From: a virus
DNA: 30,754 nt
Strand: one strand, 5' to 3'
IMG/VR virus record: IMGVR_UViG_3300021961_000399
Coordinates: 1-30,754 of that record
Part shown: in pieces, positions 10,990 to 16,843 of the stretch
Numbering within the stretch: the stretch's first letter is position 1
How the letters are laid out: every line of letters begins with the position of its first letter
The notes under the pieces: model-generated
Databases searched by the model: none
What the model saw: the letters and a program-made list of their open reading frames with translations, nothing else
Told to the model about the DNA's origin: nothing
Program-made: the position numbers and the translations under genes

Positions 10990-12252
10990 TTATGCTTCTA
11001 TAAGACCTGTTACTTCACCAGTTCTTGTAGTAGCTGCACCTGCTTGTACTGAAGATGCAGATAATAATTGTTGAGTTATCCTACCTAATCTTTGTTGATA
11101 TTCTGCTTGACCAAGTCTTGTAGCTTCTAAATACTGTGCTGCAGTTATATCTTCTCTAGCTTGTGCAGCAGCAGCTCTAGATATTCCAGGCAATACTCCT
11201 GCTGCCTCTTGGAATGCTTCTCTAGCTTGTCTTTGTGTTATACCTTGTTGTGCAAAACCTAAAGCAACTTTAGTAGCTAATGCACTAGCACCTAATGCAG
11301 TTTCAGCTTCAGCTATAATCTGACTTGTTCTTATTTGATTTTCTAAAACCTTTGTAGATAATTGTGGTGATATAAACATACCAAATATAGTTTCTTCATT
11401 TAAATCTAAATTAAATTCTCTTAAATAAACATCACGAACTTGTGGAATGTTATTTACAATACCTTGGTAACCTGCTTCTAATCTATCAGAAAACTCTTGT
11501 ACAGATACATCTCCTGATATAGCTTGTACAATGTCATCATCAAACACTTGTGGGTTAAGATTATAGTTTCTTAGATTTAATTGCATTGCTTCTTTTGCAA
11601 CAGTATATTCTTGTTCTGTCATTCTAAGAGTGCCATCAGTTTTCCTAATTCCTGGGTAGTATTTCTCCATTGCAGGGTCACTTCTCATAGTAAGTAGTGC
11701 TAATGTACTATCTCCAGTATCTACATACGCTTTTGTATAAACATCAATAAGTTCATCTGATAAATAAGGAAATCTTAATTTAGCTTCTGCTCTTGCAGAT
11801 AATCCTTTTTCAGGTGCTTTAGCTGCAGCAGGTGCAGTAACAATATCACTTGCACTCCCTGAATCAAATTCATTTCTTAAATCAACAGAACTTAATGAAT
11901 AACCATTAGCTAACGCAGCATCTAATTGTTGTTGATTAAATACTTCTTCTCCATTAGGACTATCTTTTCTATAAACTCTCTTAGGAAATCCTGGTGGGTA
12001 ATTGTTAGTAGCTGCAACCTCTATGTTTTCATCTTCTTTTTCTTCATCTTTAGATTCATCTTTAGGTGCTAAATATTGGTCAACAGCATCAATAATAGAT
12101 TTATTTAAATTAGATAAACTTTCATCAATTGTATTGGTTTCAGCAAACAAAGCTAATTGTGCTTCTGTTTTAGTACCAAAGTATTGCCCTGATTGTGTAG
12201 CTTCTACTATATCTACTTCTACGACCTGATTGTTTTTAATTATAAAAGGCAT
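10990..12252 (-). CDS. Putative internal virion protein, alanine-rich C-terminus
   Basis: A 420-residue protein. Residues 1-75 contain a helical segment and an acidic linker (ESKDEEKEDENIEVAA). The middle (140-300) is helical with repeated acidic and aromatic residues. The C-terminal 120 residues are strongly helical and rich in A, Q and R (LGASALATKVALGFAQQG, then QAREAFQEAAGV and ISRAAAAQAREDITAAQYL), the pattern of small internal virion proteins that cross membranes during DNA ejection. AGGAG lies 7 bases before the ATG. It is the last of the large-protein block, ahead of the capsid promoter. No domain is recognised; the ejection role is inferred from composition and place. Confidence 0.5.
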   Translation of the reverse strand: MPFIIKNNQVVEVDIVEATQSGQYFGTKTEAQLALFAETNTIDESLSNLNKSIIDAVDQYLAPKDESKDEEKEDENIEVAATNNYPPGFPKRVYRKDSPNGEEVFNQQQLDAALANGYSLSSVDLRNEFDSGSASDIVTAPAAAKAPEKGLSARAEAKLRFPYLSDELIDVYTKAYVDTGDSTLALLTMRSDPAMEKYYPGIRKTDGTLRMTEQEYTVAKEAMQLNLRNYNLNPQVFDDDIVQAISGDVSVQEFSDRLEAGYQGIVNNIPQVRDVYLREFNLDLNEETIFGMFISPQLSTKVLENQIRTSQIIAEAETALGASALATKVALGFAQQGITQRQAREAFQEAAGVLPGISRAAAAQAREDITAAQYLEATRLGQAEYQQRLGRITQQLLSASSVQAGAATTRTGEVTGLIEA

Positions 12253-12260
12253 TTACTCTC

Positions 12261-13424
12261 CTAATAAGCTGCTGACAAATCTTGTTGGAATTGTCTTCCC
12301 ATATTACTAATCATATCATTCTTAACACCAGGGGTATCTATATAATCACCTCTGATTTTTTTACCCATAGCGTTATAATCTCCTTTAAAATCTCTAGCTA
12401 AATTATCAATATATGCTTTATCTTCATTAGATGGAGTAATCTTTGTAATGTTTCCAAAGTATTGATAGAAAGGTCCTGACCAAGTACTGTGTTTAGCACC
12501 TTTAAAGTTTGGAAATAAAGTATCATGTGCAGTTTGTAATTCTTTTATAATTGTATTTTGCATAATGTTAGAGTTATTTTGTGCATCCATCCTAAGCATT
12601 CCTGCATACTTCTCTACTAATCCTGATGTTTTAAAACCTTCTAATGCTTGTTGACCTAAGTATTCTACAATCAATCCTTCAGCAGATAGTTCTCCTGCTT
12701 TTGTAGAATTAATCTGTTCCATATATGGTCTATATGCTTCAGGTACTGCTTCATTACCACCTGATACATTTCTATATACTGGGTCACTAATTAGTCTTAC
12801 AATATTAATAGCTTCATTACTGCTAATTTTTCCTGATGATACATCTAAAGATAATTTGTTAGATAGATTATTTATTCCTGAACCAGTAATACCACTTCCA
12901 AACAGATATGTATTAAAACTTTGTATGTTATCTTCTAATAACTTTTGTGCTTCTGCAGGTGATATAGCGTTAAGCTGAATCCATTTTCTTTCTTCAGGTG
13001 AGGTTGTTAAAAAGTAATTTGTATTTTCTAAATCTTCTGAACTTATAGGTTTACCTGTTAATGCTGACACTGTGTAGAGATTTATAATCTCATCTTCAAA
13101 TATCCATTCACCTAACTTGTTTGCAGTTCTTTGTAATTCTCTTTCTAAAGCTGATTCTAATTCTTCCCATGTTTGGTTATCAGGATTTTTAATTGTGGAG
13201 TAATCCATAATATCTACAAACAATCTATTGTTTGCTTCTTCCCATTCATCTTTAGTTCCTACAAATGATGGTGTAACTCCTGGTAGTAAAGCATTAGTAT
13301 CATCAACAAATACCAATACAGGCATAGCGTAACCTGGTCCTTCCACATTAAACACACCATAATAGTTACCATCTACTTGTATTAAGTCATCAGGTTGTGT
13401 AAATTCAGGTTCAAAATATGCCAT
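12261..13424 (-). CDS. Putative virion protein of unknown function
   Basis: A 387-residue protein, acidic and mixed alpha/beta. The N-terminus is beta-rich (DDLIQVDGNYYGVFNVEGPG, followed by YAMPVLVFVDD); the remainder is helical with Trp-containing amphipathic stretches (WEELESALERELQRTANKLGEW, about 105-127). No signal peptide, membrane segment or enzyme motif. GAGGAG lies 7 bases before the ATG, and the ATG overlaps the stop of the 799-residue gene (TAATG), so both are made together. I do not recognise the family. Its place in the block between portal and capsid genes suggests a minor virion component. Confidence 0.5.
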   Translation of the reverse strand: MAYFEPEFTQPDDLIQVDGNYYGVFNVEGPGYAMPVLVFVDDTNALLPGVTPSFVGTKDEWEEANNRLFVDIMDYSTIKNPDNQTWEELESALERELQRTANKLGEWIFEDEIINLYTVSALTGKPISSEDLENTNYFLTTSPEERKWIQLNAISPAEAQKLLEDNIQSFNTYLFGSGITGSGINNLSNKLSLDVSSGKISSNEAINIVRLISDPVYRNVSGGNEAVPEAYRPYMEQINSTKAGELSAEGLIVEYLGQQALEGFKTSGLVEKYAGMLRMDAQNNSNIMQNTIIKELQTAHDTLFPNFKGAKHSTWSGPFYQYFGNITKITPSNEDKAYIDNLARDFKGDYNAMGKKIRGDYIDTPGVKNDMISNMGRQFQQDLSAAY

Positions 13425-15823
13425 TATTGCTCCTCATTATAGCTGAATATTTTATCAAAAGCCCAGTTTATCATAGGTTCTGATAATTTCCATGACAATG
13501 ACCAAGTATCAGAAACATCACCAAACTCTGACCATGTGTCTTTACCTAATTGTTTCCAATCAACATCTGTATTGTCACCAAATTGTGCAAGTCCTTGTTT
13601 CTCTGCAGCTTTTTCTAATGCAGTTGCTGCATCTACTGCTAGTACTGATAACTCATAAACAACATAAGCTGTTAATGCAGGTCCTGCTATTGCTACTGCA
13701 CCTAATCTAGGAAGTAATGTTTTAAGACCTTGTGTAATTACTATATCACCAGGGTCTAATAATTGAGCTGCTGATAATGCTTTCTTTGGTATCTCACCTG
13801 CAACTCTAACTATTTGTTTAAACTTATCAGGGAATTTAGCAGCAAATTCTTCTATCTTACCTATTGCTTTTGGGTCAATTACCTCTTGTAAGTCTTCTGC
13901 TGTTTCTATTACTCTACTGCTAGTTGTTACACCTAACTCATCTATTTGATTTACTTTGCTTTGATTATTTAAAAACTCTACTTCTGTTGCATCTTGAATA
14001 TTTAATTTACTTCCTATACCTAAATCATCATTAGGGTCTATTAATACAACTTCTCTCCAATCACCTTTTAATTCTACAAATCCTTCTATACCTGATTTTC
14101 TAAATCCTTTTGCTATAGTTCCATCATCTAAACCTAATTGTTTTAATTCATTAATTAAACTATTTACATTTTGTGTTTTTGGATTTTTTATATCTGATAA
14201 TGATATACCAGTTTCTTTAGCAAATATATCCCAATCTACTTTATCAATTTGATTTCCTAAAAACCCATCAGGTTGTGTAATTAAAAGATTATTAGTATTT
14301 ACTTGTACTTTATAATAATTACTAACAGGATTGTCTTGAATTTTAATACCCATAGTTTCAGCAGATACATTACCAACTGGTTCTCCATAAAAACCAGGAA
14401 TAAATTTTTCAGTATCACTTCCTAAGTTAGGATTATATCTAATGTCATTAGCTGACACTTGTGTTCCTTGGTGCTTAATATAAAATTCTACATTTCCATC
14501 TGCTGAATTTAAAGTAGTATCAAATGTAGAAAGTTTATCATCTACTACATTTGTAGGTGTGTCTGCATATTTAATAAATTCTTCTTTAGATATATTTTCA
14601 AATCCTTTTGGATTATCTTTTGCTTGTTTCATATATACATCATTTAAAAAAGTTTCAACTTCTTTAAAGGTATAACCTTTTTTCATTAGTTTATCTGCTA
14701 AATCAATGTGTTCTAATTTTCCATTTTTTAATAATTCACTTGTGTCAAATATTTCTATAGCATCATCATATATATTATTTACTACATTTGTAGGTGTGTC
14801 CACTAGATTTTCTAATCTAATAATGTCAGATTCAGGTTGAGTTTCACCCATTGCTTGATTCAATCTAGATATACCTTCATCAGGCATTACATATCTTTTT
14901 CCTGGTGTAAATATATTTAAATTCAATTCAGGAATATCATTTACTACTCCTGATAATTTTGTTTTAACTGCATTAGATAAATTTTCTACATTGTTAACTA
15001 TTTCTGCAACTATGTCTTTTTTTACATTCCCTGTTGGGTTTTGTATTCCTAATTTATTTAACCAACTTTTATATTCATCACTTAGTTCAAATGTTTTTCT
15101 TCCATTGAAATTATCTTTAAGTACTTCTGCTATTTGTGTAACACTGTACTCATTATCACCAATAGCTATCCAATAATAATAATCACTGAATGGTTCTATT
15201 TCCTCAACTGCTTTTGTTCCATCAATATAATGTCTTATATTTTCAGTAGCTTCTTGTAGCCATGAATCATATAATTCTCTTCTACTATTAAATCCAAGAC
15301 CTAAGCCTTCATCTAAGTATTCACCTGCAGATATAATTCCTTCATCAACAACTACATCATAGAAATCTGCAAACTGGTCACCATAAGCTATCTCCCATCT
15401 AAATGCTGTAGTTTCAGGTATAGCAGCTCTTAATGCAAAACTTTCTTCTCCACCTAAGTTTCTACTAACTGTATTTACTACTTCTTCAAATAATGCTTCA
15501 TTGAAATCTGATGTCATTCCTTCTAATTTTAAAAGTAAATCTTCAGGGTTAGATTTAGTTAAACTAGAAAAAGATGCTCTAACTCCTGTGTCAAGAATAA
15601 CATCTAACATTTCTGTCATTGCTTTTATTGCTTGTTGTGGGTCTAAACTTTTTAGTTTATTTTTTATATGATTATCTACAACACTAGCTATACCATCATG
15701 GGTAAAACCATTTTTAATAATTAAGTTAATTATGTACTCTCTTAGCTTTGGTAAATCAGAACCTATATCAGAAAAGAATTTCTTAAACGCCTGTTCAAAA
15801 TCTAAGAAAGAATCACTATCCAT
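13424..15823 (-). CDS. Large virion protein with a putative ADP-ribosyltransferase-like domain and a membrane segment
   Basis: A 799-residue protein. Residues 1-330 are helical and acidic. The stretch around residues 340-430 contains a repeated DTPTNVV motif. Residues 445-605 resemble the ADP-ribosyltransferase fold seen in MuF-linked and Alt-like phage proteins: H451 in YIKHQGT, Y479 in PGFYGEPVG, a YYKVQVNTNNLLI strand, and a final GIEGFVELKGDWREVVLIDP with E591 before the last strand. This H-Y-E order and spacing fit an H-Y-E class ART. Residues about 707-729 are a hydrophobic segment that could enter a membrane. Neighbours are likely ejected virion proteins, so this domain could be delivered into the host at infection. 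The ART call is by eye and needs structural support. Confidence 0.55.
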   Translation of the reverse strand: MDSDSFLDFEQAFKKFFSDIGSDLPKLREYIINLIIKNGFTHDGIASVVDNHIKNKLKSLDPQQAIKAMTEMLDVILDTGVRASFSSLTKSNPEDLLLKLEGMTSDFNEALFEEVVNTVSRNLGGEESFALRAAIPETTAFRWEIAYGDQFADFYDVVVDEGIISAGEYLDEGLGLGFNSRRELYDSWLQEATENIRHYIDGTKAVEEIEPFSDYYYWIAIGDNEYSVTQIAEVLKDNFNGRKTFELSDEYKSWLNKLGIQNPTGNVKKDIVAEIVNNVENLSNAVKTKLSGVVNDIPELNLNIFTPGKRYVMPDEGISRLNQAMGETQPESDIIRLENLVDTPTNVVNNIYDDAIEIFDTSELLKNGKLEHIDLADKLMKKGYTFKEVETFLNDVYMKQAKDNPKGFENISKEEFIKYADTPTNVVDDKLSTFDTTLNSADGNVEFYIKHQGTQVSANDIRYNPNLGSDTEKFIPGFYGEPVGNVSAETMGIKIQDNPVSNYYKVQVNTNNLLITQPDGFLGNQIDKVDWDIFAKETGISLSDIKNPKTQNVNSLINELKQLGLDDGTIAKGFRKSGIEGFVELKGDWREVVLIDPNDDLGIGSKLNIQDATEVEFLNNQSKVNQIDELGVTTSSRVIETAEDLQEVIDPKAIGKIEEFAAKFPDKFKQIVRVAGEIPKKALSAAQLLDPGDIVITQGLKTLLPRLGAVAIAGPALTAYVVYELSVLAVDAATALEKAAEKQGLAQFGDNTDVDWKQLGKDTWSEFGDVSDTWSLSWKLSEPMINWAFDKIFSYNEEQ
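14543..14800. repeat. Pair of 21-base perfect direct repeats within the 799-residue protein gene
   Basis: Positions 14543-14563 and 14780-14800 are identical over 21 bases and start with TACTACATTTG. Both encode DTPTNVV on the minus strand in the same frame, once before DDKLSTFDT and once before NNIYDDAIEIFDT. Identity at the DNA level as well as the protein level suggests recent duplication or recombination. Confidence 0.7.
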
Positions 15824-15979: not shown

Positions 15980-16843
15980 TTACCTCCCTCTAAGAAATTC
16001 AAATACTTTATTTACTGCTTCGTCTAATTGGAATGTAGCCTCTGCTCCAACTCCTGGAACAACATTTGTTGTAACCTTTTCAGGTTCATCCATTCTTGTA
16101 ATCTTGTCTAGATTAGTTAGGAATTTGTTTGCAAATATTCCACTTACTTTTCTACCACTATGTGGCAAAATTCTTTCTCCTGTAAGTTTACCAGTTTCAG
16201 GATTTACTACTTCACCTGATGGTGTTGTATCAGGCATAGGAACTGTATATTTTGTTTCATTAGGTTGATATTCTTCTGTTTCTTCCATACTCATCTCTAA
16301 TTTCATCTCTTCTTCTATTTGTGATTTCAATGCTTGTGCATCTTCATTAGTTGGGTCATTAAATTTTTCTGTTGTTAAATAATATAATTCATCTAATGAA
16401 TCTTTCCAACTATCAGAACCTTCTATTTCTTTTTGATGTAACATGTGTTTTAACATCAAAGCATGGTCCTTTAATTGTGCATCATTTTGAAACCAATTAA
16501 TAACAAATTCTCTTTGTTCAGGTGTAAATGCTCTTACATCTTCTTCACCTTCTTGTACAATTCCTGAAGATAATTGTTTTTCTTGTTCAGGTGTAACGCC
16601 TGGTATCTGTACTCCTGCTTCTTGTAATGCCATATAAATAGCAGGTGACATACTATCTACATTAGCTTGAGCTAATCCATAGGATGGAGATGTTGGGTCT
16701 TCTGCTGTATTAACAAAAGGAACACCATCTACTCTAGATTCATAAGCAAGTATAGGAACAACATATTCAACTATCTCTTCTGCTATTCCAACACTTTCTA
16801 ATGCTTCAATAACTTCTTGCGTGGTATATGCTTGTTCGTCCAT
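15980..16843 (-). CDS. Virion-associated lysozyme-like / lytic transglycosylase domain protein
   Basis: A 287-residue protein whose first ~100 residues carry the hallmark of the lysozyme-like transglycosylase fold: a glutamate at the end of a helix (E35 in ILAYESRVDG) followed by SYGLAQANV at 54-62, which matches the (S/A)-x-G-L-(F/M/A)-Q motif after the catalytic glutamate. These enzymes cut the glycan strand of peptidoglycan. The rest (100-287) is acidic and helical with a Thr/Pro-rich linker and no second domain. The start overlaps the previous stop as TAATG. In short-tailed phages such a domain is carried in an ejected virion protein and opens the cell wall for the DNA channel. Domain call is good; E35 as catalytic residue is inferred. 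Confidence 0.65.
   Translation of the reverse strand: MDEQAYTTQEVIEALESVGIAEEIVEYVVPILAYESRVDGVPFVNTAEDPTSPSYGLAQANVDSMSPAIYMALQEAGVQIPGVTPEQEKQLSSGIVQEGEEDVRAFTPEQREFVINWFQNDAQLKDHALMLKHMLHQKEIEGSDSWKDSLDELYYLTTEKFNDPTNEDAQALKSQIEEEMKLEMSMEETEEYQPNETKYTVPMPDTTPSGEVVNPETGKLTGERILPHSGRKVSGIFANKFLTNLDKITRMDEPEKVTTNVVPGVGAEATFQLDEAVNKVFEFLRGR

Follow-up and report, generated by a model that had tools for sequence, protein, structure and literature searches.

A conserved in-frame linker at the boundaries of exchangeable, putative effector cassettes in a probably virion-borne protein of uncultured marine phages

Phages exchange modules while keeping their genes intact, and how they do so has long been asked. 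A case in point is a minus-strand open reading frame (ORF) at 13424-15823 of IMG/VR virus record IMGVR_UViG_3300021961_000399; the whole stretch analysed (30,754 nt) is called the window below. Once translated, the ORF yields a modular protein of 799 aa, in which a first-pass annotation had seen an ADP-ribosyltransferase (ART)-like domain within a probably ejected virion protein. Going beyond that proposal, the ART domain proves to be an exchangeable cassette edged by a repeated linker with DNA conserved at synonymous positions. We read the protein as a putative ejected polyvalent protein in which recombination at a conserved boundary sequence, lying in frame, may exchange the effectors, and assign this reading a probability of roughly 0.72.

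Synonymous codons of the linker

The heptapeptide DTPTNVV stands before the ART block in the window and at two further loci, L001 and L003, and recurs between other blocks. IMG/VR was scanned for DTPTNVV with the amino acids fixed and the synonymous positions free; all loci are IMG/VR contigs except L098, a metagenome-assembled genome (MAG) contig. With chance hits removed, the scan yielded 81 distinct junctions; among their flanks, 74 upstream and 68 downstream sequences differ from one another. The linker consists of the identical 21 bases GACACACCTACAAATGTAGTA in 76/81, while the codon usage of these ORFs (GAC 0.20, ACA 0.62, CCT 0.53, AAT 0.79, GTA 0.60) predicts ~1% per site, i.e. about one junction. 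Four loci with other codons (L039, L041, L045 and L063) had been set aside as chance hits by their short or unlike reading frames and flanks. Were they counted as linkers, the figure would be 76/85.

The base at position -1 is A in 72/74 cases and GATGAT comes next after the linker in most; with GACACACCTACAAATGTAGTA as its core, the conserved linker DNA comprises about 22-28 bp. The ART cassettes themselves serve as an internal control: where diverged members have the same residue, the codon agrees in 60-74% of cases, whereas their linkers are identical. When as many as five of 23 bases were allowed to mismatch, copies with three or fewer occurred only in the modular gene, on the sense strand and in the same frame. 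The few hits outside this gene each carry four or five mismatches. Linker variants that have lost the 5’ part mostly retain CCTACAAATGTAG, and up to five copies are present per ORF, variants included. At L055 and L085 linkers stand in direct tandem (DTPTNVVDTPTNVVP), the second copy with different codons, perhaps the scar of a lost cassette. The linker also holds an ATG-TAG start-stop in its +1 frame, for which a role in starting cassette translation was rejected because it is out of frame.

Exchange boundaries at the linkers

The modular gene of the window is composed as follows.

13424..15823, minus strand: modular protein of polyvalent type, probably virion-borne (ORF; synteny across linker-bearing homologues)
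14801..15823, minus strand: N-terminal module, residues about 1-341 (24% identity with the L005 N-terminus; no Pfam match over the cut-off)
14780..14800, minus strand: linker copy 1, GACACACCTACAAATGTAGTA (DTPTNVV), an exact DNA match to the common junction element
14564..14779, minus strand: 72-aa module starting NNIYDDAIEIFDTSELL, present or absent as a unit in L059 versus L065
14543..14563, minus strand: linker copy 2, GACACACCTACAAATGTAGTA, at which the ART cassette begins on its upstream side and DNA identity with L001 and L003 sets in
13937..14563, minus strand: ART cassette, ~627 bp, near-identical in L001 and L003
13943..14503, minus strand: predicted ART-fold domain, residues about 441-627 (motifs, alignments, fold searches)
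13424..13900, minus strand: C-terminal carrier region including a hydrophobic segment (54% identity with L005)

From the linker on, along ~627 bp, most 30-nt segments of the cassette DNA are 97-100% identical between the window, L001 and L003. Outside the cassette, on both sides, DNA identity of the window with L001 and L003 is at chance level (~0.3). Consistently, the ART block of these two loci shares 94-96% protein identity with the window in a surrounding ORF that is otherwise unrelated, and its 3’ edge is a degenerate linker. The respective phages have diverged from the window phage, the capsid proteins being 39% and 45%, the portal proteins 61% and 58% and the giant protein ~26% identical. 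Near-identical cassette DNA against capsid proteins of 39-45% identity indicates that the ART cassette moved recently, by horizontal transfer between diverged phages, into the same slot.

Conversely, the close relatives of the window phage (L005 and L018/L048; giant protein 64% identical) have no ART cassette of this type; its place is taken by HPr together with GNAT-like segments or other ART-like ones. The syntenic homologue in L005 has related ends (N-terminus 24%, C-terminus 54%), between which a segment that looks GNAT-like by eye, together with HPr, replaces the ART.

The same pattern holds for all linker ORFs. For 21 of 33 internal ends of high-identity protein matches, a linker is no more than 12 aa away in both partners, compared with 7% of positions. 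Among 71 junction pairs at least 80% identical on one side (60 nt), 61 have no similarity across the junction. L021 and L066, 93-94% identical over 12 kb, differ by the replacement of a single middle cassette, and L059 and L065 (95%) by one 237-bp unit of module plus linker, the 72-aa module of which is also found in the window. In L034/L079, L016/L077 and L036/L052 identity picks up again at a linker. Moreover, matches between near-isogenic phages stop in or at the linker itself. Taken together, homology ends at a short sequence common to the module joints, as expected of a mosaic boundary. Comparison of the sequences shows cassettes, linker identity, exchange boundaries at the linkers and horizontal spread of the ART cassette.

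Cassette content and the carrier protein

The translation bears out the H-Y-E motif residues named by the first-pass annotation: HQGT at 451, GFYGEP at 477 (Y479), YKVQV at 504, FVELKG at 582 and WREVV at 589 (E591). The codons of H451, Y479 and E591 occupy 14471-14473, 14387-14389 and 14051-14053, residues 445-605 occupy 14009-14491. Relatives of the block on other IMG/VR contigs are 37-96% identical, hence the motif pattern exceeds chance. Of the triad, the Y of PGFY (Y479) and the E of (Q)YEVVLLDPND (E591) are invariant in all aligned members, whereas the H of KH[QSA]G (H451) is Q in L015/L016 and present in all others. The V-V-L-x-D-P strand following E591 recalls the surroundings of the PARP catalytic glutamate.

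No ART family was detected by Pfam (whole protein, to E 1), PHROGs (to E 0.1) or PDB sequence searches. Searched with a profile, PDB yielded no more than retroviral integrases at E 0.4, weak matches that we put down to chance. Support for an ART is hence structural. AlphaFold2 modelled the ART block (9 sequences) with a pTM of 0.67 and a mean pLDDT of 65. Foldseek against viral models returned 'PolyVal ADP-Ribosyltransferase' first (E 6.9e-4, probability 0.99), with many lower rows labelled ART-PolyVal-like or large polyvalent protein; Foldseek alone against PDB was weak, led by AcrIF11, MbcT and ParT at E 0.3-1.5. Using VIA against PDB, almost all rows were ART or RES/ART-related folds (Z 2-4.4), with a chain of the cyanophage A4 pre-ejectosome on top (4.4), ParT (4.0), MbcT (3.9), diphtheria toxin (3.4), AcrIF11 (3.3) and PARP3 (2.6). 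As Z values are low, the consistency of the list outweighs single rows. The ART fold proposed at first pass is likely, judging from these predicted structures; with no curated ART profile matching, the domain is filed as ART-PolyVal-like by fold only.

Other cassettes are enzyme-like as well. A second ART family (LYRATDDPNR...) is predicted to adopt an ART fold (pTM 0.83), and the best 50 rows listed against PDB are ART or related folds, the A4 ejectosome chain first, with Z up to 7.7. Profile comparison of the two ART cassettes yields a probability of 8.7%, which is no sequence proof of homology. Pfam matches over the cut-off are GNAT (E 6.9e-6) and HPr (E 3.4e-7); a ParB-like segment (GNHRLQA) and a third ART-like type (FRGG...SFS...E-K-E) were seen by eye only and have no profile match. 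Disparate enzymatic domains in one polypeptide thus characterise the protein family (HPr, GNAT, two ART folds) and not the window member alone. The HPr-like domain (GLHARPSALLV) occurs in L005 (about 11546-11720), L048, L031 and L092, over the Pfam cut-off only in L005 and L048; a phosphocarrier HPr domain would be an unusual candidate for an injected effector. The long C-terminal cassettes of L026, L089 and L068 gave weak Methyltransf_23 matches below the cut-off. In L115 (4983-9068) an ART cassette of the window's family is joined to ParB-like and further modules by another repeated linker, TLRVGDD (ACATTAAGAGTAGGAGATGAT), present in two exact copies and one degenerate copy. This linker was found in one phage only, plus one chance hit.

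It is rather doubtful, though to be taken seriously, that the ART-like domain is now a module for structure or binding, its transferase activity lost, in what would be an ordinary internal protein of the virion. The missing profile match, the Q in place of H451 in L015/L016 and a best PDB fold match to a structural ejectosome chain would fit such a module. Y and E are nevertheless invariant across diverged members, the same slot holds other enzyme-like cassettes (a second ART fold, GNAT, HPr), and the recent transfer of the ART cassette suggests selection for function.

Regarding the carrier, gene order in every linker ORF with enough flank is terminase, portal, giant protein, (lysozyme), modular gene and, further on, major capsid protein. 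This constant place among virion genes, together with the phage ejectosome chain as best PDB fold match, indicates that the modular protein is probably virion-borne. The ejected virion protein of the first-pass annotation thus gains support for its location, and ejection is probable from this context. One C-terminal carrier family is common to 25 of the 45 linker ORFs with a complete C-terminus; at least two carrier families exist, unlinked by profile search. Weak Pfam matches of the window protein to DASH_Dad4 and DUF5388 were below the cut-off and taken as chance. The neighbouring genes are:

15980..16843, minus strand: upstream neighbour, judged lysozyme-like from its position and by eye (the equivalent gene of L098 matches Phage_lysozyme)
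12261..13424, minus strand: downstream neighbour of 387 aa; its counterparts in the window's close relatives, which themselves lack the ART cassette, are 67-72% identical

In L036, L052, L087 and L096 the capsid protein is 93% identical to that of the window and the 387-aa neighbour ~26%, indicating mosaicism outside the modular gene too. Cultured relatives were sought with the 799-aa protein among 50,697 phage records and no match was obtained. Among cultured phages the window capsid protein is nearest to those of actinophages (32.5% identity at best), and the linker is also present on one MAG contig labelled Actinomycetota; both hint at a marine actinobacterial host, which is a guess from the label and the nearest capsid. 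Apart from the modular gene, the window codes for a tryptophan halogenase-like protein (1425-2543; Pfam E 2.4e-35), flanked on both sides by uncharacterised genes. The pooled non-structural ORFs of records G003 and G001 (L099, L100, L102, L103) include a SET domain, an ArdA antirestriction match and an AAA_5 ATPase.

Recombination mechanism and known systems

The recombination genes seen in records of relatives are those for an exonuclease (E 4.7e-41), for a RusA-like resolvase (E 1e-7) and for a single-strand-annealing protein (E 1.9e-9), which has a homologue in 7/12 records. Tyrosine recombinases (Phage_integrase, PF00589) were not found in 8 records, nor serine recombinases (Resolvase, PF00239) in 12, and the records may be incomplete; an integrase or resolvase as swapping enzyme was rejected on these counts (0/8 and 0/12). 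From this combination we infer that annealing-based recombination at the linker is the best account. The separate TLRVGDD linker of L115 fits the view that any shared sequence can serve.

We propose that in an uncultured marine tailed-phage group a polyvalent-type protein is composed of an N-terminal region, a row of effector cassettes and a C-terminal carrier, the row of the window phage being the 72-aa module and then the ART-fold domain. The in-frame linker separates the cassettes, its DNA identity being maintained though the protein code permits change, and would provide short homology for recombination, either between co-infecting phages or as direct repeats within one gene. Whole effectors could be swapped, gained or lost with the reading frame intact, the likely machinery being enzymes that the phages encode themselves (exonuclease, single-strand-annealing protein and Holliday-junction resolvase). 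The protein would probably be packaged and then ejected with the DNA, and the ART, if active, would ADP-ribosylate some host target.

Several points weigh against this proposal. The minimum homology cited for Red and RecA recombination is ~30 bp (PMC2327257), and a linker of 22-28 bp is at or just under it. The annealing protein was not found in 5/12 records, some of them fragments, and the recombination genes come from records of relatives, the window record being incomplete and without the early region. Exchange is read from comparing uncultured phages, of which no isolate is known. Junctions share descent, so their counts are not independent. Finally, the ART model is of modest confidence, with low Z values and a variable H451 (Q in L015/L016).

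A more far-reaching version, dedicated effector shuffling, in which a selected in-frame exchange element and a specific enzyme would change the ejected multi-effector cargo within populations, appears unlikely. Somewhat less credible still is a dedicated enzyme that recognises the linker: a site-specific recombinase, or an endonuclease of the homing type whose cut there drives cassette conversion. The invariant 21-mer does have a palindromic core (inverted repeat CTACA-AA-TGTAG), 5’-truncated variants mostly keep CCTACAAATGTAG and HNH endonuclease genes are present in both nearly full-length records examined. Yet HNH genes are common among phages generally, Phage_integrase and Resolvase gave no match in the 8 and 12 records, the linker sites are all direct repeats in one frame, and the different linker of L115 is better explained by plain homology than by the site of a single enzyme.

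There is little to recommend the idea that the linker is kept for an RNA or protein reason (protease site, translation pausing or RNA structure), boundaries falling there merely as inter-domain positions. Its amino acids are conserved as well and fusion is best tolerated at inter-domain linkers, but amino-acid constraint leaves the identical synonymous codons and the A at -1 unexplained, no RNA structure was found at the linker (z -0.43 and -0.01) and near-isogenic matches end in or at the linker itself. Metagenome assembly chimeras at short shared sequence can practically be dismissed: all loci bar L098 are IMG/VR contigs and the shared sequence is close in size to small assembly k-mers, but 25 of the 80 distinct junctions are each present in two or more IMG assemblies (some of which may share a sample), among them both other contexts of the ART cassette (L001/L002; L003/L004/L056), two junctions recur in a MAG contig, and chimeras leave the invariant codons unexplained.

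The linker offers a clean natural case for module swapping: one short frozen sequence at many joints of one gene, and near-isogenic pairs that differ by a single cassette. The boundary-sequence idea becomes directly testable. Moreover, each segment flanked by two linkers becomes a candidate domain for host takeover or counter-defence, which opens a route to effector discovery. Polyvalent ART and ParB-like proteins, their injection and boundary sequences as a proposal are already known; new is the repeated intragenic linker with invariant DNA, of which we found no report in the open-access literature.

Polyvalent proteins of phages and conjugative elements combine disparate enzymatic domains, including ART and ParB-like ones, and presumably reach the host by injection together with the DNA (Iyer et al. 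2017, PMC5512222); recombination of cassettes was already suggested there as a possibility. The likeness lies in several enzymatic domains within one large phage protein. The words linker and HPr are absent from that text, whereas here a linker of invariant DNA is repeated and exchange occurs at it. ART-PolyVal-like phage proteins are the nearest named fold match among viral models for both ART cassettes, which differ by having no profile match, by H to Q in part of the family and by being exchangeable. T4 Alt is a head-packaged, injected ART (PMC5512222); ejection of our protein would resemble it, while that paper does not present Alt as a cassette. The first-pass parallel with Alt in modifying host RNA polymerase gains no support from the sequences. 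The cyanophage A4 pre-ejectosome (PDB 9k3a) is the top PDB fold match of both ART cassettes (Z 4.4 and 7.7), a likeness in fold only, with a protein from a different phage.

For lambdoid mosaic joints, it was proposed that modules recombine homologously at short shared sequences (PMC3029335, PMC2327257), but boundary sequences cannot be identified at most joints (PMC3029335). Here, in contrast, one sequence repeats in frame within a single ORF on many contigs. Integron, shufflon and invertase cassettes differ by their recombinases, no tyrosine or serine enzyme having been found here (8 and 12 records, which may be incomplete). Dedicated shuffling would, by analogy, share cassette exchange with integrons, here inside one polypeptide. 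Polymorphic toxins, finally, pair a variable C-terminal toxin with an adjacent immunity gene, whereas the cassettes described here are internal and serial and the C-terminus is shared in many members.
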